Position numbers and translations under genes: made by a program
Shown: positions 2,364 to 39,829 of the stretch, in pieces
How positions within the stretch are numbered: position 1 is the stretch's first letter
Layout: every line of letters starts with the position of its first letter
Assembly: GCF_002752355.1 (NCBI RefSeq)
Contig: NZ_MRAV01000011.1
Location: forward strand, 1 to 64,000
Direction of reading: 5' to 3'
Source of the DNA: Leucobacter sp. OLIS6
Lineage (GTDB): Bacteria > Actinomycetota > Actinomycetes > Actinomycetales > Microbacteriaceae
Length of the DNA stretch: 64,000 nucleotides
The notes under the pieces: model-generated
What the model saw: only the letters and a program-made list of their open reading frames with translations
Databases searched by the model: none
What the model was told of the DNA's origin: nothing

Positions 2364-3170
2364 CTACTCGTACGCCCCCACGACGGTCTGGTCCCAGTCG
2401 ATGATGGATCCGGTGACGACGCCGCTGCGGTCGCTGAGGAGGAAGACGACGGCGTCGGCGATCTCGTCGGGCTGGCCGAGCTTGCCCATGGGCATCGCGG
2501 CGGACGCCTGTTCGAGCCAGCCGTCCTCGGCGCCGTGGAACTTCTGCTGGGTGGCGTTCTCGCCGGGGGTCGCGGTCCAGCCGATGTTGAGGCCGTTGAT
2601 GCGGATCCGGTCGAAGCGGTGCGCGAAGGCGGCGTTCTTGGTGAGGCCCGCGAGTCCGGCCTTGGAGGCGACGTAGGGCGCGAGGTAGGGCTGCCCGCCG
2701 TGCGACGAGATGGTGATGATGTTGACGATCGTGCCGGGCGCTCCGCGCCGCTGCATGTCGGCGACGGCGCCCTGCATGGTCATGAAGGGGGCGACGAGGT
2801 TGACGGCGAGGTGTTCGCCGAGCAGTTCGCGTGTGGTGTCGGTGAGGCTGCCGCGGGTGGGCAGGGCGGCGGCGTTGACGAGGCTGTCGATGCGGCCGAA
2901 GCGTGCGACGGTCTCGGCGACGGCGCGTTCAGCTTCGCCGGGGACCGCGAGGTCGGCGACGACGGCGATCGCGTTCGCAGGTCCGTCGTCGCTCCGGAGC
3001 GCGGCTTCGTGGATCTCGGTGAGCGCGCGTTCGGCTTTCTCGGCGGAGCGTCCGACGATCGCGATGCCGGCGGCTCCTTCGCGGGCGGCGGCGCGTGCGA
3101 TGGCGAGGCCGAGGCCCTGGGTGCCGCCGGTGACGAGCAGGATCCTGCCGGCCATGAGGTGCTGCATCAT
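2364..3170 (-). CDS. SDR-family NAD(P)-dependent oxidoreductase
   Basis: This is a classical short-chain dehydrogenase of 268 residues. The dinucleotide motif TGGTQGLG is at 14-21. The catalytic set is Ser155/Ser156, Tyr166 and Lys170 (YVASK). The start is the ATG at 3170, whose ATGA overlaps the stop of the upstream Gfo/Idh/MocA gene, with GGAGG just before it; the ATG at 3167 has better SD spacing and is the alternative. It is the last gene of the sugar/inositol transporter operon, so it probably oxidises or reduces a polyol or keto-sugar made from the imported compound. The exact substrate is unknown. Confidence 0.85.
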   Translation of the reverse strand: MMQHLMAGRILLVTGGTQGLGLAIARAAAREGAAGIAIVGRSAEKAERALTEIHEAALRSDDGPANAIAVVADLAVPGEAERAVAETVARFGRIDSLVNAAALPTRGSLTDTTRELLGEHLAVNLVAPFMTMQGAVADMQRRGAPGTIVNIITISSHGGQPYLAPYVASKAGLAGLTKNAAFAHRFDRIRINGLNIGWTATPGENATQQKFHGAEDGWLEQASAAMPMGKLGQPDEIADAVVFLLSDRSGVVTGSIIDWDQTVVGAYE

Positions 3171-27853: not shown

Positions 27854-29269
27854 TCAGGCGAAGAGCTCGCGCACGCGCGGGATCACGCGTTCGTAGTCGG
27901 CGCGCACGGTGCGATACGCCTCGACGAGCTCGGGCTCCGGTTCGACCAGTTGCCCGGGCCGCACCATGGCCGCCACCGCCGCGTCCCAATCCGGGTGCAG
28001 CCCGATCGCGACCGCCGCCGAGACCGCGGCTCCGACGCCCGCGGCGTCGGCGATCCCGGGCCGTCGCACCGGCCGGTCGAACACGGCGGCCAGGATCCGG
28101 AGCATCAGCTCGGAAGCTGCCCCGCCCCCGGTCACGACGACCTCGCGCAGCTCGCGGCCCTGGGCCTCGACGAGCGCGCGACAGCTGCCCCCGACCGTCA
28201 CCGCGAGGGCCTCGAGGATCGCACGGAACACGTGTCCGCGGCCCTGGGTCCCGTCGAAACCGACGATGGCCCCGCGGCGTTCGGGCGCATCGCTGGGCGC
28301 GAGCCAGTCGAGGGAGACGATCAGTCCGCCGCTGCCGGGAGGCACCGACTCCGCCTCGCGACCGAGCTCCGCCTCGCTCGGCGCAGCCCCCGGCTCGCGC
28401 CCCGCCCCGAGAAGCTCGCGGAACCAGCTCACCGTCCACATGCCGCGGCGGACCCCGGCGCACTCCACCAGGTAGCTGCCGGGCTCCGCCCCGAAATTGA
28501 CCCAGGCCTCGGAGAGCGGCGGTTCCGCCCGCTCGCTGAGCGTCATGCCCGAGACGTAGGTGCCGAGCGAGATGAGCGCCCGGTCGGGCTCTCGGAGCCC
28601 CGCGCCCAGGGCCTCTACCGCCTTGTCGTTCGAGGTCGCGACGACGGGCAGCCCCTCGGGCAGGCCGGTCGCGGCCGCCGCCGCCGCCGTCACACCGCCG
28701 AGGATCGTGCCCGGAGCGACGAGGTCGAACAGCATCTCGCGCGGCATCCCGGTACGCACGAACGCCTCCGGGTCCGCGCTCCACGTCCAACGCTCCGGGT
28801 CCACGGGCCAGACCCCCTGCGCGTTGCCGGCGGTGTCCCGGCGCTCTCCCGTCAGCCGGAAGCCGAGGTAGCCCGACGAGGTCGTGAGGTACCGCGCATC
28901 GACGGGCGATTCCGCAGCCGAGTGCGGGCGGGACAGGCGTTCGTCCATCCAGCTCATGACCGGCTGCGCGAGCGACCCGTCCTCCCGCAGCACAGCGCGG
29001 CAGAAGCGGATCGTGCAGAGCCCGACGCCGACGATCTCGGCTGCGTCTCCCCCGGCATCCGCGAACGCCGTCAGCACCGCCCGCACGGTCGCCGCGAGCG
29101 AATCCCAGAGATCATCGTCCGGGTGCTCCCAGCGCCCCGGCCCCGGCGACGCGTACGGGCGGAGCGCCCGCTGCGCGCTCGCGCGCAGGACCCCGCGCGC
29201 GTCGAACACCGACACCTTGGTGCTCTGCGAGCCGCCGTCGATAGCGATCACGCAGGGTCCCGAACCCAC
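27854..29269 (-). CDS. FGGY-family carbohydrate kinase
   Basis: This kinase has an actin-like fold, with the phosphate-1 motif AIDGGSQSTKVSVFD near the N-terminus, the SLGTYVSGM segment and the C-terminal VVTGGGAASELMLRILAAVF motif of the FGGY group. The substrate is a sugar, polyol or related alcohol and cannot be fixed. Two in-frame GTG starts are possible: 29269 (471 residues, used here) and 29251 (465 residues, beginning MIAIDGG, which fits the family well). It is the last gene of the Fae-type cluster, 8 bases after the FAD oxidase gene. Confidence 0.85.
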   Translation of the reverse strand: MGSGPCVIAIDGGSQSTKVSVFDARGVLRASAQRALRPYASPGPGRWEHPDDDLWDSLAATVRAVLTAFADAGGDAAEIVGVGLCTIRFCRAVLREDGSLAQPVMSWMDERLSRPHSAAESPVDARYLTTSSGYLGFRLTGERRDTAGNAQGVWPVDPERWTWSADPEAFVRTGMPREMLFDLVAPGTILGGVTAAAAAATGLPEGLPVVATSNDKAVEALGAGLREPDRALISLGTYVSGMTLSERAEPPLSEAWVNFGAEPGSYLVECAGVRRGMWTVSWFRELLGAGREPGAAPSEAELGREAESVPPGSGGLIVSLDWLAPSDAPERRGAIVGFDGTQGRGHVFRAILEALAVTVGGSCRALVEAQGRELREVVVTGGGAASELMLRILAAVFDRPVRRPGIADAAGVGAAVSAAVAIGLHPDWDAAVAAMVRPGQLVEPEPELVEAYRTVRADYERVIPRVRELFA

Positions 29270-29277
29270 GCCCGGCC

Positions 29278-30738
29278 CTACGCGATCGGGAAGACGGTGC
29301 CGAGGTTCATGATCCCGTTGGGATCGAACTGGCGTTTGAGGCCCGCGAGCAGCGGGTAGGCCGTGCCGTGCTCCTCCAGGGTCCACGGGGTGCGGTACTT
29401 GCCGATGCCGTGGTGGTGCACCATGGAGCCGCCCAGTCGCAGCGCCTCCTCGACGATGATCGCGTTGAGCGGCACGTGGTACTCGGCGATCTCCTCGCGC
29501 GGCTCGCAGTCGATCCGATAGTCGTAGACGAAGTAGAGGTTGGTCCCCGTCTGGTAACTGTGCGAGGAGTGCGCGCCGAGCATGGTGAGGTCGGCCTCGC
29601 GCAGGAACTCGGTGCGGACGCGGTGCATCACGGACTCGAACAGCTCGCGGACCCCCAACCAGCCGATGGAGACCTCGGTCGTGTACCCGAGGTGCGCGGT
29701 CTCGAGCATGGTGCGCTTCTCGGCGTCGATCTTGTCCTGCCCCCAGTTGAGCCCGTCGAACCAGGCCTCGACGAGCGCCGGGTCCACCGGCTCGTGCGGG
29801 ATCCCGGCGAAGATCCGTTCCACGCCCTCGGCCGTGGCATCGGCGATCGCCTGCGGTCCCTCGGCCACGACCACCACCACGGCCCGGCCGCCCGCGAAGT
29901 GGGCGAAGTGCTGGGCCGCGTCCTCCTCCGAGTAGGCGCGAGCGACCGAGGGCCGATAGCCCTCGACGATGATCTCTCGGAGGCCCTCGACGCCCGCAGG
30001 CAGGGACTCGACGAGGAATCCGAGGAATCGCAGGTGCTCCGGCCGGTGCCGGAAGATCTTCACGGTGACCTCGGTGATGAAGCAGAGCGCCCCCTCGTTG
30101 CCGATCACGATGTGGCGGATGTCGGGCCCGGCCGCGCGCCGCGGCACGTTCTTGATGCGCCGCACCGCGCCGCCGGGAAACACCGCCTCGAGCCCCATTG
30201 TGAGGTCCTCGATGCCGCCGTAGAGGGTCGAGAACTGACCGATCGAGCGCGTCGCCACGAGCCCGCCCATCTGCGCGATGGGCTTCGACTGGGGCGAGTG
30301 CCCCGTCGTCAGCCCGCGCGCGCGCAGTTCGTCCTCGAGGCGCTGCAGCGGCACGCCGCACTGCGCGGTCGCCGTCATGTTCACCGGATCGATGTCGAGG
30401 ATCGCGTCCATCTGCGAGCCGTCGAGCACGATCGTGTCGTCGACGATCGTCTCGAGTCCGCCCTCCGTCGCGGTGCGGCCGGTGCGCGGCACCACGTTGA
30501 TGAGGTGCTCGTCGGCGAAGGCGAGCACGCGCGCGACGTCCTCGGTCGAGCGCGCCAGCACGATCGCGGCCGGGATCGGGCCGTCGAAGATGCCGTGCAC
30601 CGCCGTGTACTTCTTGAAGCGGTCGACGCTCGCCTCGCGCAATTCCTGTTCGTCGGTGACGATCTGCTCGGGCGTGAGGAGCCGCTCCAGACGGGCGACG
30701 ATCTCGGAGCGTTCGAGCGGCGATCGGGATGCAACCAT
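29278..30738 (-). CDS. FAD-linked oxidase (alkyl-DHAP synthase / D-lactate dehydrogenase-like)
   Basis: The N-terminal FAD_binding_4 domain (about 50-230) of this 486-residue flavoprotein includes PRTGRTATEGGLE and QSKPIAQMGGLVATRS. The C-terminal FAD-oxidase domain has the SMVHHHGIGKYR motif, which is like the HHHG motif of alkyldihydroxyacetone-phosphate synthase. Bacterial members usually oxidise 2-hydroxy acids, so that is the likelier role. It is encoded downstream of the SDR gene in the minus-strand cluster. Oxidation of a hydroxy acid or hydroxy compound produced there is inferred. Confidence 0.85.
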   Translation of the reverse strand: MVASRSPLERSEIVARLERLLTPEQIVTDEQELREASVDRFKKYTAVHGIFDGPIPAAIVLARSTEDVARVLAFADEHLINVVPRTGRTATEGGLETIVDDTIVLDGSQMDAILDIDPVNMTATAQCGVPLQRLEDELRARGLTTGHSPQSKPIAQMGGLVATRSIGQFSTLYGGIEDLTMGLEAVFPGGAVRRIKNVPRRAAGPDIRHIVIGNEGALCFITEVTVKIFRHRPEHLRFLGFLVESLPAGVEGLREIIVEGYRPSVARAYSEEDAAQHFAHFAGGRAVVVVVAEGPQAIADATAEGVERIFAGIPHEPVDPALVEAWFDGLNWGQDKIDAEKRTMLETAHLGYTTEVSIGWLGVRELFESVMHRVRTEFLREADLTMLGAHSSHSYQTGTNLYFVYDYRIDCEPREEIAEYHVPLNAIIVEEALRLGGSMVHHHGIGKYRTPWTLEEHGTAYPLLAGLKRQFDPNGIMNLGTVFPIA

Positions 30739-30794
30739 GGCGTTCGGGATCCTGTTCTCTCGGGTGTGGTCGGTTCGAATCGGGCGGGCGCGGG

Positions 30795-31571
30795 TCAGCG
30801 CACGAGGTAGCCGCCGTCGACGGTCAGCACGTGGCCGTTCACGAAGTCGGAGGCGCGGCTGGCGAGGAAGACGGTGGCGCCCATGAGGTCGGCGATGTCG
30901 CCCCAGCGCGCGGCCGGGGTGTGGTCGATGATCCGCCGGTTGCGCTCGGGGTCCGAGCGGGTCTCCTCGGTGATGGAGGTCTTGAAGTAGCCGGGAGCGA
31001 TGGCGTTCACCTGGATCCCGTACCCGCCGAGCTCGTCGGCGTAGGCCCGGGTGAGCCCCGCGATCCCGTGCTTCGTCGCCGCGTAGGCCGGCGAGCCGAG
31101 GCCGCCGAGGAACGCGAACAGCGACGCGATGTTGATGATCTTGCCCGAGCCCTGCGGGATCATGGCTTTCGCGGCCTCGTGGCTCATCTCGAACGCGCCG
31201 GTCAGATTGACGGCCATCATTGGGTCCCACAACTCACGGCCGAACTCGACGACGTCGGCAATGCGGCTGATCCCGGCGGAGTTCACCAGGATGTCGACGC
31301 CGCCGAGCTCTTCGACGCACCGGGCGACCGCGGTGCGGGGCGCCCCGGGAACGGTGATGTCGACCGCGAGCTCCGCGTACCGCACGCCCTCGGCCCGCAC
31401 GAGCTCGGCGGTCTCGCCGTCGTCGTCGTGCAGCCCGGGCACGAAGACATCCGCGCCGGCCTTCGCAAGCGCCAGGGCGAAGCCTTGGCCGAGCCCGCGA
31501 TTGCCGCCGGTGACGATCGCGCGACGCCCCGCGAGCGAGAACAGGTCGAGCGAGAAGTCGGTGATGTTCAC
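30795..31571 (-). CDS. SDR-family oxidoreductase (KduD/gluconate 5-dehydrogenase-like)
   Basis: This 258-residue classical SDR has TGGNRGLG around 21-28, the NSAG motif, Ser in INIASLFAF and the YAATK catalytic pair. The N-terminal FSLDLFSLAGRRAIVTGG is typical of KduD and gluconate 5-dehydrogenases. The start is GTG at 31571, overlapping the stop of the hydroxyacid dehydrogenase gene (GTGA). It sits in a coupled operon with the Fae homologue gene, so it probably oxidises a polyol or hydroxy-keto intermediate. Substrate unknown. Confidence 0.88.
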   Translation of the reverse strand: MNITDFSLDLFSLAGRRAIVTGGNRGLGQGFALALAKAGADVFVPGLHDDDGETAELVRAEGVRYAELAVDITVPGAPRTAVARCVEELGGVDILVNSAGISRIADVVEFGRELWDPMMAVNLTGAFEMSHEAAKAMIPQGSGKIINIASLFAFLGGLGSPAYAATKHGIAGLTRAYADELGGYGIQVNAIAPGYFKTSITEETRSDPERNRRIIDHTPAARWGDIADLMGATVFLASRASDFVNGHVLTVDGGYLVR

Positions 31572-32512
31572 GCCGCGGCCCCGATTCCCTCGGCCGCGCC
31601 CTCGAGCCGCAGCTCGCGCCCCAGCAGCTGTTCGTAGAGCCGGAACGGCGTCATCTCGCCGGCACGGTCGCCGTAGCTGGCCCGCGCCCGGCGGAACACC
31701 TGCTCGACGAGCGAGGACAGCTCGACGGGGACGCCGACCGAGCGCGACAGGTCGACCGACAGGCCGAGATCCTTGCAGGCCAGGGCGATCGCGAAGCCCT
31801 CGTCGTAGTCGCCGTGCGCGAGGATCGAGAGCACATCGCGCTCCACGAACGCGCTGTTCGCCGGGCTCGCGATGAGCGATTCCCGCAGCACTCCGAGGTC
31901 CACGCCGGCGGCGACGCCGGTCGCGAGCACCTCGGCGGTGGCGACGAGGTGCGAGAACCAGAGCTGGTTGATCATGAGCTTGACCGCGTAGCCCGCACCA
32001 GCGCCGCCCACGTGCAGGATCCGCTCGGGGTCCCCCATCGCCTCGAGCACCGGGCGCACCCGCTCGACGTCGGCGGCCTCGCCTCCGACGAAGATCTGCA
32101 GCATCCCGTTCGCCGCCCCGACCGACATCCCGCTGACGGGGGCGTCGAGGATCCGCAGCCCGCGTTCGGCCGTGGCCGTGCGGATCCGTTCGACGACGTC
32201 GGGCACGGAGGTCGACATGTCGATCCAGGTGCCCCCGTCGGCGATCCCGGCGAGGATCCCGTCGGGCCCTTCGGCGGCGTCCGCCACGTGCCGCGGGGTC
32301 GGCAGCATCGTGATCACGAGGTCGCTCGACCGGGCGACCTCGGCGGCGGTATCGGCCCAGACCGCACCGCCGGCGACCAGCTCGGCCGCGGCCTCGCGGC
32401 GCAGATCGCTGACGACGAGCGGGAACCCGGCGGCCTGCAGGTTGCGGGTCATGCCCGAGCCCATGCTGCCGAGCCCGATGAACCCGACGGTGGGCAGTGG
32501 AGTGTCGTTCAT
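31568..32512 (-). CDS. Beta-hydroxyacid dehydrogenase (3-hydroxyisobutyrate dehydrogenase family)
   Basis: This 314-residue NAD(P)-dependent enzyme has the Rossmann motif GFIGLGSMGSGM near the N-terminus, the substrate-binding DAPVSGMSVGA and the catalytic Lys in GAGYAVKLMINQ. The family reduces or oxidises small beta-hydroxy acids (3-hydroxyisobutyrate, tartronate semialdehyde, others). ATGA overlap with the Fae-like gene and GTGA overlap with the SDR gene show coupled translation. Valine degradation is possible but no valine genes adjoin it. Confidence 0.9.
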   Translation of the reverse strand: MNDTPLPTVGFIGLGSMGSGMTRNLQAAGFPLVVSDLRREAAAELVAGGAVWADTAAEVARSSDLVITMLPTPRHVADAAEGPDGILAGIADGGTWIDMSTSVPDVVERIRTATAERGLRILDAPVSGMSVGAANGMLQIFVGGEAADVERVRPVLEAMGDPERILHVGGAGAGYAVKLMINQLWFSHLVATAEVLATGVAAGVDLGVLRESLIASPANSAFVERDVLSILAHGDYDEGFAIALACKDLGLSVDLSRSVGVPVELSSLVEQVFRRARASYGDRAGEMTPFRLYEQLLGRELRLEGAAEGIGAAA

Positions 32513-33045
32513 GCTGAGAGCGCGTCCTTCGGCGTGTAGAAGGGGTTGGAGGGGGTGTCGCGGGCAGCCAGCACCTCGTCGAGCGCGGGCAGGCCCGCGG
32601 CTCCGTTCGCCAGTGCGGTGCGGGTCGCCTCGCGGTTGTTGCGGTAGATCTGCTCGGCGTCGTCGGCACCCGGGTTCACCCAGACGGCGGCGATCAGCGC
32701 GTGCGTGTCGGCGTGCCGGGCCGGGATCGTGCCGGCTGCCACGGCGTCAGCCACCCCGGCAGCGACCCCCGCCTGCGCCGGTCCCCAGATGTGCGTGCCG
32801 TGGGCATCGGTCTCGGGGGCGGCCTTCGTCACGAAGAGCGTGAGCGGCTTCACGGGGAGCGAGGGGCGGAGCACCGCGACGAAGGGCACGTGGCCCTGGC
32901 TCGGCGAGGCGAGGGCCGTGGCCCACGCCGCGCCCGTCGGCCCGTCTCGGTGGCCGAGCACGGTGTTGATGTGCGCGGCGTTCACGCCGGATCCGACGAA
33001 GCTCTCGCCGATCTGCACGGCTGCGGACTCGGACTCGGTGCTCAC
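32509..33045 (-). CDS. Formaldehyde-activating enzyme (Fae) homologue
   Basis: This 178-residue protein shows the Fae family pattern along most of its length: GESFVGSGVNAAHINTVLG, PVKPLTLFVTK, HIWGPAQAGVAAGVADAV and a C-terminal VLAARDTPSNPF. His25 aligns with the catalytic histidine of Fae. Known Fae condenses formaldehyde with tetrahydromethanopterin in methylotrophs. Most actinobacteria are not known to make that cofactor, so the real reaction here may use another acceptor or none. The GTG start at 33045 overlaps the transporter binding-protein stop (GTGA), which ties it to uptake. Its presence here is unexpected. Confidence 0.82.
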   Translation of the reverse strand: MSTESESAAVQIGESFVGSGVNAAHINTVLGHRDGPTGAAWATALASPSQGHVPFVAVLRPSLPVKPLTLFVTKAAPETDAHGTHIWGPAQAGVAAGVADAVAAGTIPARHADTHALIAAVWVNPGADDAEQIYRNNREATRTALANGAAGLPALDEVLAARDTPSNPFYTPKDALSA

Positions 33046-33983
33046 TTGATCAGCCCCTCGTCCTCGAGCCACTCGATGGCGACGTCCTGCGGGTCCTCGC
33101 CGTCGACGTCGACCTTCGCGTTGAGCTTCTGCATCACCTCGGTGGTGAGCTTGGGGCTGACCTGGCCGAGCACGTCCGCGATCTTCGGGTACTTCTTCAG
33201 CGTCGACTCCTTGAGGGTGAAGCCGCCCTGATAGCTCGGGAAGAACTGCTTGTCGTCCTCCATCACGGTCAGCTTCAGGGCCGGGATCCGGCCGTCGGTC
33301 TGGAACACCTCGCCGAAGTTGCAGTCGGTGCCCTTCTGCGTCGCGGTATAGATCACGCCGGTGTCGAGCATCTTCACGTTCGAAGCCGGTGCATCGAAGC
33401 CGTAGGCCTTGGTGAGCCCGGGCCAGCCGTCGTCGCGCGTCGAGAACTCGCTCTCGATGCAGAAGGTCTGGTCGGCCTGCGGCAGCTTCGCGACGTCGCT
33501 GAGCGTCTTCACGCCGAGCTTCTCGGCCTCGCTCGAGCGGATCGCGAACGCGTAGGTGTTGTTGAACGGCGCCGGCTTCAGCCATGCGATGCCCTTCTTC
33601 GCGTCCGCTTCCTTCACCGCGGTGAACTGCTCGTCGACGCCCTTCACCGGCGACGTGTTGCCGTTGTAGGTGATCCACGAGGTGCCCGTGTACTCCCAGT
33701 AGCCGAGGAACTGGTCGTTCTCGAGCGCCTGCCGAACGTTGGCGGACCCGACGAGCTTGGTGTTCGCCTTCACGTCCGCACCGTGCGCGTTGAGCAGCTC
33801 CGTGGTGATGTGGGCGAGGATGTACTGCTCCGAGAAGTCCTTGGAGCCGATCTCGCCGGTCAGCCCGGCCAGCTCCTGGTCTCCTCCGCCGGATCCTCCG
33901 GAGGATGAGGAGCATCCGGTGAGGGCGAGGGCGCCCGCGGCGAGCAGCGCCGCCGCGGCGAATCCGATTCTGCGAGTGTGCAT
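33042..33983 (-). CDS. Osmoprotectant ABC transporter substrate-binding lipoprotein (OpuCC/ProX-like)
   Basis: The lipoprotein signal of this 313-residue binding protein ends in LTGCSSS. The start of the mature domain, GSKDFSEQYILAHITTELL, is the hallmark of quaternary-amine-binding OpuCC/ProX proteins. Family ligands are glycine betaine, choline and carnitine, but Gly/Ala substitutions around the aromatic cage would change that. ATG 33983 follows AAGGA. It is encoded after two permease genes and an ATPase gene and before the Fae-like gene, so import and metabolism are linked. Confidence 0.9.
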   Translation of the reverse strand: MHTRRIGFAAAALLAAGALALTGCSSSSGGSGGGDQELAGLTGEIGSKDFSEQYILAHITTELLNAHGADVKANTKLVGSANVRQALENDQFLGYWEYTGTSWITYNGNTSPVKGVDEQFTAVKEADAKKGIAWLKPAPFNNTYAFAIRSSEAEKLGVKTLSDVAKLPQADQTFCIESEFSTRDDGWPGLTKAYGFDAPASNVKMLDTGVIYTATQKGTDCNFGEVFQTDGRIPALKLTVMEDDKQFFPSYQGGFTLKESTLKKYPKIADVLGQVSPKLTTEVMQKLNAKVDVDGEDPQDVAIEWLEDEGLIK

Positions 33984-34015
33984 GGGTGGTTCCTTTCGGG
34001 TGACGGGATCGGGCC

Positions 34016-34810
34016 TCAGAGGCCCTTCGGACGGACGACGTCTTCGATGACGCCGGCGACCCAATCGATGAGGATGGCGATGCAGGCGACCAGCACGGCG
34101 CCCACGAGGAGGACGGGATAGCGCTGCAGCTTCAGGCCGTTGACGATCATGTCGCCGAGGCCGCCCGCGTTGATGAAGGTCGCGACGGTCGCGACGCCGA
34201 CCGCGAAGACGAGCGCGGTGCGCAGGCCGGCGAGGATCACGGGAGAGGCCAGCGGCAGCTCGATGCGGCGCAGCACCTGCCCCGAGGTCATGCCCATGCC
34301 GCGGGCGGACTCGCGTACGCTCGGATCGACCTGGGCGAGGCCCGTGATCGTGTTGCGCAGCACCGGCAGGAACGAATAGATCACGAGCGCGAGCAGCGCC
34401 GTCGCGAACCCGGTCTGCCAGACGATCGCGAGCAGGATCACGACGCCGATGGCCGGGGTCGCCTGGCCGATGTTCGCGAGCCCGATCACGATCCCGCGGA
34501 ACACCCGCGAACGCGATCGGCTGACGGCGATGCCCGCCGGGATCGCGAGCACGGCGACGAGGACGGCGGCCAGCACCGAGAGGACGAGGTGCTCGCCGAT
34601 CCGGGCGACGATGTAGCCGGGGTTCAGCGTGCGGGACTCGATCGAATCGAGCTGCAGGCTGCCGACCCAGAGGAACAGCGCGAGCAGCACGCCGACCACA
34701 ACGAGGAGCGGGACGCAGCGGCGCAGGATCCTGCGCCCGCGACCGCTCGGTGCCGCGGGGATCGTGCCGATCAGCGCGGTCGGCGACGGAGTGATCTGCG
34801 GGGCGGACAC
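34016..34810 (-). CDS. Osmoprotectant ABC transporter permease (OpuCD-like)
   Basis: This 264-residue membrane protein has about six hydrophobic segments and the binding-protein-dependent EAA-type loop (ESARGMGMTSGQVLRRIELPLASPVI). The start is GTG at 34810, one base after the ATPase stop codon. It is one of the two permeases of the OpuC-like importer. It has a longer N-terminus than the other permease (residues 1-60, one extra helix). Confidence 0.9.
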   Translation of the reverse strand: MSAPQITPSPTALIGTIPAAPSGRGRRILRRCVPLLVVVGVLLALFLWVGSLQLDSIESRTLNPGYIVARIGEHLVLSVLAAVLVAVLAIPAGIAVSRSRSRVFRGIVIGLANIGQATPAIGVVILLAIVWQTGFATALLALVIYSFLPVLRNTITGLAQVDPSVRESARGMGMTSGQVLRRIELPLASPVILAGLRTALVFAVGVATVATFINAGGLGDMIVNGLKLQRYPVLLVGAVLVACIAILIDWVAGVIEDVVRPKGL

Positions 34811-34811
34811 G

Positions 34812-35849
34812 TCACGCCCTCCCGCGCGCGGCCCCGGGTGCGCTCGCGCCGAGCACGTCCGAGATGGCCGCGTGATCGATCGAGCCGACGATCCGATCCC
34901 CGTCGAGGACGTTGATGCGCGGAGCCCCAGTGACGACCAGCCGGTCGAGCGCCTCGCGCAGGGAGTCCCGCACGCCGATCGTCTGCGGCGGGGCGTCTCC
35001 CGCCGCAGCGCCGAGCGCAGCCTCCGACACCGGCATGAGCGCGAGCCGCTTGAGGGCGGCGCCCTGGCCGATGAACGAGCTCACGTACTCGCTGGCGGGG
35101 TTCGCCAGGATGTTCGCAGGGGTGTCGAACTGCTCGATCCGGCTGCGCTCGCCGAGCACCGCGATGCGGTCGCCCATGCGGATCGCCTCCTCGAAGTCGT
35201 GCGTGACGAAGATGATCGTCTTGCCGATGTCCTCCTGCAGGCGCAGGAACTCGGCCTGCAGCTTCTCGCGCGTGATCGGGTCCGTCGCGCCGAACGGCTC
35301 GTCCATGAGCATCACCGGCGGGTCGGCGGCGAGCGCCCGGGCGACGCCGACGCGCTGCTGCTGGCCGCCGGAGAGCTGGCGGGGGTAGCGGTTCGCGAAG
35401 ACGCCGGGGTCGAGCTGCACGGTCGTCAGGAGCTCCTCCACCCGCTCCGCGATGCGGGCCTTCGACCAGCCGAGGAGCTTCGGCACGGTCGCGATGTTCT
35501 CGGCGATGGTGAAGTGCGGGAACAGGCCGATCTGCTGGATCACGTAGCCGATGTGCCGTCGCAGTTCGTTGCCGTCGAGCGAAAGCACGTCGTTGCCGCC
35601 GATCCGGATCGATCCGGAGGTGGGCTCGATGATCCGGTTGATCATTTTCATCGTGGTGGTCTTGCCGCAGCCGCTGGGGCCGACGAACATGATCAGCTCG
35701 CCGGGGTCGATTCGCATCGAGAACTCCTCGACCGCGGCGACCTGCTGCCCGGGGTACTGCTTGCTGACTCGGTCGAGTTCGAGGTCGACGCCGCCCTGAT
35801 GCGAGGCGAGCGCCGAGAGGATTCCGGTGTTCGTGGTGGGTTCAGGCAC
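34812..35849 (-). CDS. Osmoprotectant ABC transporter ATPase (OpuCA-like)
   Basis: This 345-residue ATPase has Walker A GPSGCGKTT (about 57-65), the Q-loop in VIQQIGLFPH, signature LSGGQQQRVGVARAL, and Walker B VMLMDEPFGATDP. A C-terminal tail (about 285-340) resembles a single CBS motif (INVLDGDRIVGSI). In OpuCA, CBS domains sense ionic strength; here the region is short and may be degenerate. It overlaps the first permease gene by 8 bases. Confidence 0.92.
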   Translation of the reverse strand: MPEPTTNTGILSALASHQGGVDLELDRVSKQYPGQQVAAVEEFSMRIDPGELIMFVGPSGCGKTTTMKMINRIIEPTSGSIRIGGNDVLSLDGNELRRHIGYVIQQIGLFPHFTIAENIATVPKLLGWSKARIAERVEELLTTVQLDPGVFANRYPRQLSGGQQQRVGVARALAADPPVMLMDEPFGATDPITREKLQAEFLRLQEDIGKTIIFVTHDFEEAIRMGDRIAVLGERSRIEQFDTPANILANPASEYVSSFIGQGAALKRLALMPVSEAALGAAAGDAPPQTIGVRDSLREALDRLVVTGAPRINVLDGDRIVGSIDHAAISDVLGASAPGAARGRA

Positions 35850-36531
35850 GGAGCCCCCTTGAGGTCGTGAAGCGGGAGATGAGGACGAAGAGACCGTCGA
35901 GCGCGAGCGCGAGCAGGATCACGACGACGGTTCCGGTGAGCGCGTAGTTGAGCGCGTTCTTGGACCCCAGCGAGGAGAGGCCCTTGAAGATGTACTCGCC
36001 GAGACCGGGTCCGGCGACGTAGGCGGCGATCGCGGCGATGCCGACCGTGAGCTGCGCGGCCACGCGCACTCCGGTGAGGATCACCGGCCAGGCGATCGGC
36101 AGCTGCACGGTGAGGAGCACCCGCGAGGATCCCATTCCGACGCCCCGCGCCGCTTCGAGCACCGAGACGGGCACTTCCCGGAGCCCGACGACGGTGTTGC
36201 GCACGATGGGCAGCAGCGAGTAGAAGACGAGCGCGACGACGGTGGGGAGCCAGCCGAGGCCGAGCACGGGGCTCAGCAGTGCCAGCAGCGCGAGCGAGGG
36301 GATCGTGATCGCGACTGCCGAGGCGGTGAGTACGGCGGAGCGCGCGAACCGGCGATCGCGCACGGCGATGCCGAGTGCGATGCCGATGATCATCGCGAGC
36401 ACGAGCGAGATCAGCACGACGACCAGGTGGTCGATCGTGAGCTGCACGATGTCTTCGCCGCGTCGGCGGAGGAAGGTCATGAGGCCTTCCCAACTGAATC
36501 CGGTCAATGGAATCCACTCCTGTCTCGTCAT
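35842..36531 (-). CDS. Osmoprotectant ABC transporter permease (OpuCB-like)
   Basis: This 229-residue permease has five or six hydrophobic segments and the EAA loop (EAARGVGMGSSRVLLTVQLPIAWPVI). The first ATG is 36531, but it has no ribosome-binding site. ATG 36480 (MTFLRRRGED) follows GGGAAGG and may be the true start, giving 212 residues. It is the first gene of the OpuC/Fae cluster, divergent from the IclR gene. Confidence 0.85.
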   Translation of the reverse strand: MTRQEWIPLTGFSWEGLMTFLRRRGEDIVQLTIDHLVVVLISLVLAMIIGIALGIAVRDRRFARSAVLTASAVAITIPSLALLALLSPVLGLGWLPTVVALVFYSLLPIVRNTVVGLREVPVSVLEAARGVGMGSSRVLLTVQLPIAWPVILTGVRVAAQLTVGIAAIAAYVAGPGLGEYIFKGLSSLGSKNALNYALTGTVVVILLALALDGLFVLISRFTTSRGLRA

Positions 36532-36602: not shown

Positions 36603-37487
36603 ATGGCAACCGAAGAGTACGCTGCCCGCATGAGCAGCACTGCAGCCGGCCCGCGCCGCAATACCTCGGGTCTGAGTCGGGACATCGAGATCCTCGAGCT
36701 GCTGGGCGGGGACGCGTCCTTCGCGAGCGGCGGGCTGGGCGTCACCCAGATCGCCCAGCGCACCGGACGCGACAAGGCGGTCGTCTCGCGGGCGCTCTCC
36801 ACACTCGCCGACGCCGGTCTCGTCGATCGCGACGACGAGACGCTGCGCTACCTGCCGGGATCGCGCCTCTACGCGCTGGCCGCGCACTCGGCGCACGCGG
36901 CCCTGATCGCCGCCGCGCGGGGTGCGCTGCGGCACCTCGTGCAGACGACGCGGGAGACCAGCCATCTCTGCGTGCTCAGTGGCGGCAACGTGCTGACCCT
37001 GCTCAGCGAGCTGAGCCCCCACGAGGTGCGCACCACCGGCTGGGCCGGTACCACGACCGCGGCCTGGCGGACCCCGTCCGGGCGGGCGCTGCTGAGCGAC
37101 TGGGACGAGGGATCGCTGGGCCGCTGGTACGCGGAGCACGGCAACGATCTCCCGCTCATGGGACCCGTCGATCCCGGCCGTTCGCGCAGCGGCTTCCCGG
37201 TTCCGGACGCGCCGCTGCCGGGCACCGCGCCCGCGGCCGACCTCGAGAGTCTGATCCTGGAGCTGCGGGGCGTGCGGGAACGCGGGTACGCGCTCTCGGC
37301 CGAGGAGCTCGAGATCGGCGTGGTGGCGGCATCGGCGCCCGTGACCGACTTCACCGGCCGGGTGGTCGCCGCGATCAACGTCAGCGCGCCCAAGGATCGG
37401 ATCGGCGACCGGCTGCCGACGCTCGGCGCGCACGTGGCGAGCACCGCCCGCGAGCTCTCGGCGCGCCTCGGCGCGGCCCCGCAGTAG
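36603..37487 (+). CDS. IclR-family transcriptional regulator
   Basis: This protein of 294 residues has an N-terminal winged helix (about 32-95, IAQRTGRDKAVVSRALSTLADAGLV) and a C-terminal IclR effector domain. It is divergent from the OpuC/Fae cluster and is its likely regulator. The ATG at 36603 has no ribosome-binding site and might be leaderless; ATG 36630 (MSSTAAG) is the alternative. The effector domain is slightly unusual, with a proline-rich insert around 190-210. Confidence 0.82.
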   Translation: MATEEYAARMSSTAAGPRRNTSGLSRDIEILELLGGDASFASGGLGVTQIAQRTGRDKAVVSRALSTLADAGLVDRDDETLRYLPGSRLYALAAHSAHAALIAAARGALRHLVQTTRETSHLCVLSGGNVLTLLSELSPHEVRTTGWAGTTTAAWRTPSGRALLSDWDEGSLGRWYAEHGNDLPLMGPVDPGRSRSGFPVPDAPLPGTAPAADLESLILELRGVRERGYALSAEELEIGVVAASAPVTDFTGRVVAAINVSAPKDRIGDRLPTLGAHVASTARELSARLGAAPQ

Positions 37488-37627: not shown

Positions 37628-39829
37628 ATGACCGACACCGCCGGCCAGTGCCCCGTCCCCCACGGCGCCCCCTCCGCCTCGCGCACGGCACCCACCAACG
37701 CTTCCTGGTGGCCCGACCGCCTGAACCTCAAGATCCTGGCGAAGAACCCGGTGGTCGCGAATCCGCAGGGCGCCGACTTCGACTACCGCGCGGCATTCGA
37801 GACCCTCGATCTGGCCGAGGTGAAGGCCGACATCGCCCGCCTGCTCACCGAATCGCAGCCCTGGTGGCCCGCCGATTTCGGCAATTACGGCCCGCTGATG
37901 ATCCGCATGGCCTGGCACTCCGCCGGCACCTACCGCGTGTTCGACGGCCGCGGCGGCGGCGGAACCGGACAGCAGCGCTTCGCTCCGCTCAACAGCTGGC
38001 CCGACAACGTCGGCCTCGACAAGGCGCGCCGTCTGCTCTGGCCGGTCAAGAAGAAGTACGGCCGCTCGCTGTCGTGGGGCGACCTGATGATCCTGGCCGG
38101 CAACGTCGCGCACGAGCAGATGGGCATGCCCGTCTTCGGCTTCGCCGGCGGCCGCCCCGACGTGTGGGAGCCCGACGACGACGTCTACTGGGGCTCGGAA
38201 TCGACCTGGCTGGGCGACGAGGGCCGTCTCGGCGCGGACGGCGCGCAGGAGCTCTCGAAGCCCCTCGGCGCGACCATGATGGGCCTCATCTATGTGAACC
38301 CCGAGGGCCCGCGCGGCAGCGGCGACCCGATCGCAGCGGCCCACCAGATCCGTGAGACCTTCGGGCGCATGGCCATGGACGACGAGGAGACCGTCGCGCT
38401 GATCGCGGGCGGTCACACCTTCGGCAAGACCCACGGCGCCGCCCCCGAGGAGGGCAGTGTCGGCGAGTCGCCCGAGGGTGCCCCGATGGAGCAGCTGGGC
38501 CTCGGTTGGAAGAGCAGCCACGGCTCCGGCAGCGGCAACGACACCATCGGCTCGGGCATCGAGGTCACCTGGACCTACCACCCCACCCGCTGGGACAACG
38601 AGTTCTTCCACATCCTCTTCGCCTACGAATGGGAGCTCGTGACGGGCGAGGGCGGCCACACCCACTGGCGGCCGAAGGACGGCGCCGGATCCGACATGGT
38701 GCCCATGGCGCAGGGCGAGGGACGCCGCGAGCCCCGCATGCTCACGACCGACATATCGCTGCGCGAGGATCCGATCTACCGCGAGATCTCGCTACGCTTC
38801 AAGAACGACCAGGAGGCCTTCACCGAGGCCTACCGCCGCGCCTGGTTCAAGCTGACCCACCGCGACCTCGGACCGAAGTCCCGCTACCTGGGCGCGGAGG
38901 TCCCGGCGGAGGACCTGCTCTGGCAGGATCCGATCCCCGCGCCGACGGGCCCGGCCCTCGGCGACGCCGACGTGGCCGATCTCGCTCGCCGCATCGGTGA
39001 GCTCGATCTCCCCGCGGCCGAGCTGGTGCGGGCCGCGTGGGCGGCGAGCTCGTCGTTCCGCGGCAGCGACAAGCGCGGCGGCGCGAACGGCGGACGGATC
39101 CGCCTCGAGCCGCAGCGCAGCTGGGAGGTCAACCGGCCCGCGCAGCTCGCCCGCGTGCTCGACGCACTCGACGCGATCAAGGCCGAGTTCGATGCCCAGG
39201 GCGGCCCGACGGTCTCGATCGCCGACCTGGTGGTGCTCGCGGGCAACGTCGGCGTGCAGCAGGCCGCCCGCGCGGCCGGGCACGAGGTCGAGATCCCGTT
39301 CACCCCGGGCCGCACCGACGCCTCGCAGGCGCAGACGGACGTCGAGTCCTTCGGGTTCCTCGAGCCCGCGGCGGACGGCTTCCGCAACTACGAGAGCGCA
39401 CGGACCCTCGGCATCCCGGCTGAGCACCTGCTGCTCGACCGCGCCAATCTGCTGACCCTCTCGGCACCCGAGATGACCGTGCTGCTCGGCGGCCTCCGCG
39501 TCATCGGCACCAACTGGGACGACTCGCAGCACGGCGTGCTCACCGACCGCCCGGGCGCACTGACGAACGACTTCTTCGTCAACCTGCTCGACCTCGACAC
39601 GCAGTGGCGCGCGCTCGACCCGCAGCAGCGCGCGTTCGAGGGCGTCGACGAGTCGAGCGGAGAGCGGCGCTGGACGGGCACCCGCGCCGACCTGGTCTTC
39701 GGCTCGAACTCCGAGCTGCGCGCCATCGCCGAGGTCTACGCGAGCGACGACGCCCAGACGCAGTTCGTGCGCGACTTCGTCGATGCTTGGGTCAAGGTCT
39801 CGAACCTCGACCGCTTCGACGCACGCTGA
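37628..39829 (+). CDS. katG: Catalase-peroxidase
   Basis: This 733-residue bifunctional haem enzyme removes H2O2. The distal site is in [11 protein letters not shown] (Arg, Trp, His). The Trp-Tyr-Met crosslink partners are Trp in AWHS, Tyr in YVNPEGP and Met in RMAMDDEET. The proximal His is in [10 protein letters not shown]. The second, non-haem half follows from about 420. The ATG follows AAAGGATC. No furA gene is adjacent, unlike in many actinobacteria. Confidence 0.97.

Follow-up and report, generated by a model that had tools for sequence, protein, structure and literature searches.

A formaldehyde-activating-enzyme homologue coupled to a choline-type importer in Leucobacter points to an undescribed route for betaine-like molecules

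Background

The closest described systems to the locus reported here are the formaldehyde-activating enzyme (Fae) of Methylobacterium extorquens, the OpuC/OsmF osmoprotectant importers, and alkyl-dihydroxyacetonephosphate synthase (AGPS), which forms the ether bond of alkyl-dihydroxyacetone phosphate (alkyl-DHAP) from acyl-DHAP and a fatty alcohol through a flavin adduct. In many algae, fungi and phosphate-starved bacteria, betaine lipids take the place of phospholipids. According to excerpts of one paper, homoserine betaine occurs free as an osmolyte and exometabolite, and its uptake by microbes was 'not directly tested' there (PMC13403184); those of another, on marine phospholipid head-group catabolism, mention diacylglyceryl-trimethylhomoserine (DGTS) only as a membrane lipid of the cell itself (PMC10132767). 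Here we analyse a window of 64,000 nucleotides from Leucobacter sp. OLIS6 (contig NZ_MRAV01000011.1, positions 1 to 64,000; assembly of 3.33 Mb in 22 contigs), in which positions 27854-36531 of the minus strand hold a single compact operon for an OpuC-type importer, a Fae homologue, a dehydrogenase of the 3-hydroxyisobutyrate dehydrogenase (HIBADH) type, a short-chain dehydrogenase/reductase (SDR), a flavoenzyme and an FGGY kinase. Since the Fae homologue is coupled to a choline-type importer in cells that apparently lack the pathway of the Fae cofactor tetrahydromethanopterin (H4MPT), the locus points to an undescribed route for the breakdown of betaine-like molecules, perhaps betaine-lipid head groups. 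Neither this cluster, nor the Fae clade, nor betaine-lipid head-group catabolism was found described among the matches listed from open-licence PMC papers, in their titles and abstract openings.

Results

A scan of genome_contigs gave 507 stretches encoding relatives of the Fae clade, and the best 80 of the 507, all titled actinobacterial, were examined; near relatives (Microbacteriaceae) dominate these 80 and the counts are not independent. Gene presence was scored with fixed identity thresholds within a reach of 9.5 kb, and the frequencies given below refer to the 67 untruncated loci with at least 7 kb on each side of fae, the other 13 having been dropped for a contig or stretch end within 7 kb. 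The gene set recurs in most of the 80 relatives, across many genera, so that the grouping is more than chance. The IclR regulator and the HIBADH-type dehydrogenase are present in all 67 loci and a succinate-semialdehyde-type aldehyde dehydrogenase (ALDH2) in 65; the OpuC-type importer is found in 63, a major facilitator superfamily (MFS) transporter stands in its stead in three, and one locus has neither. The coupling of importer and Fae, on which the original prediction was built, is therefore a rule in this set, with exceptions, and a Fae homologue beside unrelated genes, named there as grounds for rejection, was seen at none of the 80 loci. The importer or the catabolic genes sometimes lie on the opposite strand, e.g. 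in loci L010, L013, L067 and L080. Six proteobacterial plasmid records (Ensifer, Burkholderia and four Caballeronia) all combine an aldo/keto reductase (AKR), ALDH2 and a clade Fae with 48-54% identity to that of the window, and five of them, Ensifer being the exception, also have an MFS transporter match. The distribution of the trait is patchy, with Fae in 11 of 54 same-genus genomes (host included) and in 4 of 396 genomes of the host's order.

The window Fae scores well above the Pfam cut-off for PF08714 (177.8 bits against 27) and above that of NCBIfam TIGR03126 (157.7 bits against 118.05), and its AlphaFold model (pLDDT 89.3) matches M. extorquens Fae 1y60 with a template modelling (TM) score of 0.86; the five PDB matches at E <= 0.001 are all M. 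extorquens Fae. Residues were compared in 90 sequences of the clade, six from proteobacteria and 84 from actinobacteria, the latter including second copies, under another identifier, of two loci already counted; loci L004 and L099 were kept out of both the clade and the non-clade groups. In the alignment with the M. extorquens enzyme the His of the AHID stretch is His25, which we take to be the general acid of Fae, and His25, Lys74 and Gln91 are invariant in 90/90 sequences; loss of the catalytic His, which had been set beforehand as refuting, was not seen among the 80 loci. The clade sequences also all carry Asn27, His82, Trp87 and Trp122, versus Asp, Gln, Phe and Phe in six sequences of five non-clade records, and by eye both Fae proteins of a Leucobacter variant described below (variant C) have the same diagnostic residues. 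In a quick Fae tree, with 48 of its 89 inner branches open, a long branch with an SH-aLRT support of 100 separates clade from non-clade sequences, and judged by their sequences the window-type Fae proteins are a clade of their own. One idea, drawn from the sequences, is that Trp87 and Trp122 could form an aromatic cage for an amine.

Two further Fae homologues deserve mention. L004 (1501-1962; G372), from a genome of the same taxonomic order as the window, encodes a third kind of Fae, 31% identical, that keeps His25, Asn27 and Trp122 and has Ser in place of Trp87. On the Thiodictyon plasmid NZ_CP020372.1 (L099), positions 2498-3052 encode a homologue with Met at the catalytic His and Glu at the Asp/Asn position; genes of ABC transporters and an IS66 element lie nearby.

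The invariance of His25, Lys74 and Gln91 suggests that catalysis was kept in the clade, and it speaks against the Fae homologue being a non-catalytic aldehyde-binding carrier or sensor that guards the cell against a reactive pathway intermediate. Such a role would suit a small protein that is a regular companion of alcohol and aldehyde dehydrogenases, and mutation of fae2 or of fae3 alone left the growth of Methyloversatilis as in the wild type, according to excerpts of the report (PMC5023235); all the same, we consider it very improbable.

In regards to the cofactor, two markers of the H4MPT pathway, methenyl-H4MPT cyclohydrolase (MCH, PF02289) and H4MPT formyltransferase (FTR, PF01913), were searched in 38 genomes, namely the window's own and those behind 37 of the 80 loci. 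Each of the 38 genomes has exactly one Fae, and neither MCH nor FTR was found in any of them (0/38 for both), which makes an H4MPT-dependent Fae reaction in these cells very unlikely, as far as the searches with these two families can tell, and agrees with the earlier suspicion that the cofactor would be missing. Among 14 control genomes MCH was detected in three and FTR in two, all archaeal, and mch lies within a few kb of fae in four of six plasmid stretches with a non-clade Fae, the exceptions being Methylocystis and Thiodictyon. The pterin contacts given in archaeal numbering by UniProt/HAMAP (H17, D19, L48, K66, T68 and Q83) presumably mark the cofactor site; in the 90 clade sequences H, K and Q are kept and the three others are changed throughout, D to N, L to V, M or Q, and T to other residues (A in 81). 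The reading in which Fae condenses formaldehyde with H4MPT was rejected on the absence of MCH and FTR from the 38 genomes.

Formaldehyde could enter in another way, if enzymes encoded elsewhere released the methyl groups of the substrate as formaldehyde and Fae sped the condensation of this formaldehyde with a carrier such as tetrahydrofolate or mycothiol. The fold and the general-acid His are kept, the window Fae scores above the NCBIfam Fae cut-off, the alcohol dehydrogenase of variant C is related to mycothiol-dependent formaldehyde dehydrogenase, and a review, in the part available, states that two actinobacteria oxidise formaldehyde via mycothiol (PMC8879981). Formaldehyde as an intermediate, which the original prediction had suggested, nonetheless fits the operon poorly: the ten window genes include no demethylase-, monooxygenase- or formaldehyde-oxidising-like gene (the relatives were searched for named families only), three of the six presumed contact positions differ (N for D, V for L, A for T), Fae is regularly accompanied by a dehydrogenase of the succinate-semialdehyde type, and the H4MPT pathway markers are absent. 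We regard this alternative as improbable.

Three unrelated alcohol dehydrogenases, HIBADH, AKR and a medium-chain dehydrogenase/reductase (MDR), alternate beside one Fae and ALDH2 pair, which suggests a core order in which an alcohol is oxidised to an aldehyde, Fae acts, and an acid is then formed. The proposal that Fae handles an aldehyde fits, since an alcohol dehydrogenase (67/67) and an aldehyde dehydrogenase (65/67) accompany it in the untruncated relatives. The nearest solved structures to ALDH2 are succinate-semialdehyde dehydrogenases (SSADH; 3jz4, 488.5 bits), with the TRK and KxRN stretches kept and the Arg of TRK present in 78/78 sequences; these Arg residues are, we assume, the ones that bind the substrate carboxylate. 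Of three ALDH2 proteins scanned against the NCBIfam SSADH cut-off of 646.35 bits, that of Ensifer lies above (681.4) and those of L019 (538.6) and L085 (552.8) below it.

In the window operon the ALDH2 gene is missing exactly between the HIBADH and SDR genes, the place that it holds in L041. The closest copy in the host genome (60% identity, 622 bits, the next best having 312) is on another contig and adjoins a gene that by eye is GabT-like, and this GabD-like copy, as a general SSADH, may stand in for the missing enzyme. Elsewhere in the host genome, an aldehyde-dehydrogenase-like place with one in-frame TAG was noticed at G000:C6:45198-46580 (L106).

Around this core two non-homologous gene trios alternate. 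The type A trio of the window, SDR, AGPS-like flavoenzyme and FGGY kinase, is present in 34 of the 67 untruncated loci, and the type B trio, made of an enolase-superfamily protein, a PuuC/betaine-aldehyde-dehydrogenase-like aldehyde dehydrogenase (ALDH1) and an iron-containing alcohol dehydrogenase (Fe-ADH), in 29; four loci have neither. The original prediction named the gene set correctly and missed that SDR, FAD enzyme and kinase form a module that can be separated and is exchanged for another trio in relatives. Three A/B changes were counted on the quick Fae tree, a soft number given its many open branches. Six type A loci have only one or two trio genes within reach, five of them with the kinase farther out and L017 because it ends, and L080, of type A, has an extra enolase match on the opposite strand. 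Streptomyces clavuligerus (L005) has importer, Fae, HIBADH and ALDH2 and no trio. Within Leucobacter, type A is found in L137 and L041 (Leucobacter celer), type B in L138, the core with an MFS transporter in L139, L140, L071 (L. coleopterorum) and L082 (L. musarum), and the core without a recognised transporter in L066 (L. ruminantium). Variant C (L141, 5080-11525; L142, 8055-14489) has an MDR alcohol dehydrogenase where HIBADH would stand, a more distant OpuC-type importer, a Fae with 46-47% identity, and ALDH2.

The flavoenzyme had been labelled an FAD oxidase, which missed its likeness to an enzyme of ether lipids; the nearest solved structure is AGPS: 4bby scores 161.4 bits and the other oxidoreductases of the PDB at most 96.9, so that a plain FAD oxidase (GlcD) was rejected as the nearest relative (161 bits against <=97). 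NCBIfam ranks GlcD first, with 125.5 bits against a cut-off of 567.9, and returned no AGPS model. The protein aligns over both domains with 4bby and 2uuu, which from their entry codes we take to be the mammalian and Dictyostelium enzymes, including SHSYxxGxxLYF and HHHGxGKxR, whose His triplet and Tyr motifs are presumably those of AGPS catalysis. These motifs are kept in 38 of 39 flavoenzymes, the remaining one lacking letters there, and the context of the protein looks catabolic, with the direction of its reaction predicted from that context. In the type B trio the enolase catalytic residues are kept in 35-36 of 36 sequences.

Both modules also occur apart from Fae. An AGPS homologue (E <= 1e-90) is encoded in 6 of 347 order genomes and 3 of 396 phylum genomes, the host being counted in both. 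Four order genomes without a Fae match carry trio A: L117 beside an OpuC importer, L118 (1047-6512) and L119 (12457-17919) directly downstream of MttB (PF06253, 2e-177) with a DAO, FAO_M and GCV_T domain (dimethylglycine-dehydrogenase-like) protein adjacent, and L116 without such neighbours. L118 and L119 perhaps represent a demethylating version of the same pathway. In the distant genomes L126 and L127, the queried importer, Fae and betaine genes were not found in the 19-kb stretches around trio A. The enolase is found in 2 of 347 order genomes, G125 with Fae and L125 without. Thus, as L117, L118, L119 and L125 illustrate, each of the two modules can, but need not, occur with quaternary-amine genes where Fae is absent. 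At L125, nearby genes look by eye like those of a sulfatase and of sugar-type ABC permeases.

These contexts also bear on a polyol or sugar-acid catabolism, in which kinase, SDR, FAD enzyme and enolase-type dehydratase would act on an imported carbohydrate and Fae would be an aldehyde lyase there. The KduD-like SDR, the FGGY kinase, the enolase resembling sugar-acid dehydratases and the trios that have neither importer nor betaine genes near all suit that idea. It is countered by the similarity of the flavoenzyme to AGPS and not to a sugar oxidase, by the position of the trio next to MttB and a dimethylglycine-dehydrogenase-like gene, and by the cage motifs of the binding protein described next, and we hold it to be decidedly improbable.

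The importer has the four-gene OpuC layout, permease, ATPase, permease and OpuAC binding protein. The binding protein could be aligned with choline and acetylcholine sensor precursors, and Tyr/Trp/Tyr/Tyr/Arg/Tyr/Phe are kept in 75-76 of 76 sequences at positions that, from the ProX/OpuCC structures, we take to be those of the aromatic cage. It keeps aromatic-cage-type motifs and is predicted to have a trimethylammonium cage, which is consistent with the choline- or betaine-like substrate proposed at the outset. O-methyl-inositol, another substrate proposed there, was rejected because none of the ten window genes is an inositol gene; the relatives were not searched for one.

The window gene set, with its overlaps, was confirmed in full (Table 1). 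The stop of the binding-protein gene and the start of fae overlap in GTGA at 33042-33045, fae and the dehydrogenase gene in ATGA at 32509-32512, and the dehydrogenase and SDR genes in GTGA at 31568-31571, and the genes of permease 1 and the ATPase share 8 nt (35842-35849). A gap of 56 nt precedes the flavoenzyme gene, which starts with ATG at 30738; the kinase gene starts with GTG at 29269, 8 nt past the flavoenzyme stop. Directly past the IclR gene, a KatG-like catalase-peroxidase gene, named by eye, occupies 37628-39829 of the plus strand; it has a katG match in only one of the 80 loci (L026) and does not look like part of the operon unit.

Table 1. Genes of the operon and of its divergent regulator, with positions in the window
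Feature	Position	Strand	Family matches and remarks
IclR-family regulator, divergent	36630..37487	+	PF01614, PF09339; part of the unit
OpuC-type importer permease 1	35842..36531	-	BPD_transp_1; nearest NCBIfam ProW/choline permease, below cut-off
OpuC-type importer ATPase	34812..35849	-	ABC_tran; proV subfamily TIGR01186 304.8 bits, slightly below cut-off 326.6
OpuC-type importer permease 2	34016..34810	-	BPD_transp_1
OpuAC-domain substrate-binding lipoprotein	33042..33983	-	PF04069 3.7e-59; motifs GYWEYTGT, FNNTY, SEFSTRDDG, GVIYTA, EVFQTDGRI
Fae-family protein, separate clade	32509..33045	-	PF08714 2.1e-52
Beta-hydroxyacid dehydrogenase (HIBADH; 3-hydroxyisobutyrate / tartronate-semialdehyde reductase type)	31568..32512	-	PF03446 (NAD_binding_2), PF14833 (NAD_binding_11)
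SDR, KduD-like; type A trio part 1	30795..31571	-	adh_short_C2; NF005390 315.4 bits, below cut-off 369
Flavoenzyme, AGPS homologue; type A trio part 2	29278..30738	-	FAD_binding_4 + FAD-oxidase_C; PDB 4bby 161.4 bits
FGGY-family kinase; type A trio part 3	27854..29269	-	PF00370, PF02782 (FGGY_N/C); under every NCBIfam cut-off

Discussion

Building on the observed operon, its conservation and modularity, the absence of the two H4MPT markers, the family assignments and the kept motifs, we propose from homology and gene context a substrate, an order of steps and a Fae reaction. The best overall explanation, which we put forward tentatively, is that the operon imports and degrades a quaternary-ammonium glyceryl-ether compound, most likely the deacylated DGTS head group (glyceryl-N,N,N-trimethylhomoserine). 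Its parts differ in strength. Catabolism of a quaternary-ammonium compound with an H4MPT-independent Fae is probable, and a repurposed Fae in such catabolism is a much firmer claim than any named substrate; a glyceryl ether as the imported compound is close to an even call, trimethylhomoserine as its head group is doubtful, and Fae as an amine lyase somewhat more so.

In this scheme the importer would bring in a betaine-type glyceryl-ether compound, the SDR would oxidise the middle hydroxyl of its glyceryl group to a ketone and the FGGY kinase would phosphorylate the end hydroxyl. The kinase and the ketone-making SDR would then supply a DHAP-type substrate, so that trio A reads as an ether-cleaving module, in which the AGPS homologue, by its flavin chemistry and with water replacing the fatty alcohol, could release dihydroxyacetone phosphate and homoserine betaine. 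In type B loci, the glyceryl end might instead be oxidised by Fe-ADH and ALDH1, and the enolase-superfamily enzyme would then eliminate the rest from the resulting glycerate ether to give pyruvate. That both trios would converge on one glyceryl ether, a convergence itself proposed from their families, is the strongest reason for the glyceryl-ether reading. Glyceryl-trimethylhomoserine, a natural compound, offers a trimethylammonium group, a carboxylate and a glyceryl ether, and its cleavage would leave a C4 acid with a terminal alcohol. The HIBADH-type enzyme would turn this terminal alcohol of homoserine betaine into an aldehyde, on which, as a multi-carbon substrate, Fae could act without H4MPT, most plausibly by expelling trimethylamine to leave a C4 semialdehyde that the succinate-semialdehyde-type dehydrogenase would convert to a C4 dicarboxylate. 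Loss of trimethylamine at an aldehyde-activated position would be a reaction at a C-N bond, as is the Fae reaction. In its fullest form, a betaine-lipid head-group pathway with Fae as a cofactor-free amine-releasing lyase on a C4 aldehyde, an AGPS relative working in the cleaving direction and an unrelated enolase trio carrying out the same ether cleavage in sister lineages, the proposal is unlikely.

The same operon logic could serve another head group, such as that of the betaine lipid DGTA (hydroxymethyl-trimethyl-beta-alanine) or another glyceryl-ether cation, with HIBADH acting on a 3-hydroxyisobutyrate analogue and the enolase perhaps eliminating glycerol or trimethylamine directly. The family membership of HIBADH would suit this, as would the enolase-superfamily gene of L125, which adjoins an OpuC importer without other partners, but a succinate-semialdehyde-type ALDH and a possible GabD-like stand-in better suit a linear C4 semialdehyde, and we find this alternative quite improbable. 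A sulfoquinovose-type logic, with HIBADH and ALDH as sulfolactaldehyde enzymes, was set aside for leaving the importer and the AGPS homologue unexplained.

Several observations weigh against the DGTS head-group proposal. For the cofactor, the absence of the H4MPT pathway is read from MCH and FTR only, the control genomes positive for them were archaeal only, and the NCBIfam Fae equivalog-domain model places the window protein above its cut-off. The dehydrogenase of variant C resembles N,N-dimethyl-4-nitrosoaniline (NDMA)-dependent and mycothiol-dependent formaldehyde dehydrogenases (388 and 310 bits, both below cut-off), so that a formaldehyde role could still apply. Aromatic-cage proteins bind many cations, and the cage of the binding protein was read from aligned motifs. 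The SDR, the kinase and the enolase-type protein score below every NCBIfam cut-off shown, and several substrates are therefore possible. Importer and trio do not always go together: no trio accompanies the importer in L040 and S. clavuligerus, and in L084 an MFS transporter takes the place of the importer beside trio A. In three genomes (L116, L126 and L127) trio A stands without the queried importer or betaine genes. The MttB contexts of L118 and L119 are ~99% identical and are in effect one event. Finally, the enolase gene of L125 (5897-11438) has with it an OpuC importer and IclR only, no trio partners and no Fae, which would be easier to explain if the enzyme took the imported compound itself as its substrate than if it acted third.

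If the proposal is true, a route for head-group degradation would fill in a missing part of the cycling of carbon and nitrogen. A sizeable set of proteins now annotated as formaldehyde-activating enzyme, e.g. those of S. clavuligerus and Caballeronia, would also gain a function, in organisms from which the cofactor may be absent; 507 matching stretches came from one scan, although only 38 genomes were searched for the H4MPT markers.

Compared with M. extorquens Fae (PDB 1y5y/1y60), the clade has the same fold (TM 0.81-0.86), 35-37% identity and the active-site His, Lys and Gln, but differs in Asn27 for Asp, Trp87 and Trp122 for Phe and His82 for Gln, in the absence of MCH and FTR from the 38 genomes tested, and in its partners, an OpuC importer and a succinate-semialdehyde-type ALDH instead of mch. 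The Fae2 and Fae3 paralogues of Methyloversatilis and Methylosinus are likewise Fae homologues without an established function, according to excerpts of the reports (PMC5023235, PMC3615186), but their hosts have the H4MPT pathway. With the OpuC/OsmF osmoprotectant importers the window importer shares the four-gene layout, the OpuAC domain and the cage motifs, but its genes form part of a catabolic operon with an IclR gene and its binding protein scores 155.7 against an OsmF equivalog cut-off of 400. As for AGPS (4bby, 2uuu), the window homologue has the FAD and C-terminal domains and the SHSY/LYF-type and HHHGxGKxR motifs, but it is ~170 residues shorter than the 658-residue 4bby chain and is encoded in a bacterial operon with a kinase and an SDR; the known enzyme makes an ether, whereas the window homologue would cleave one.

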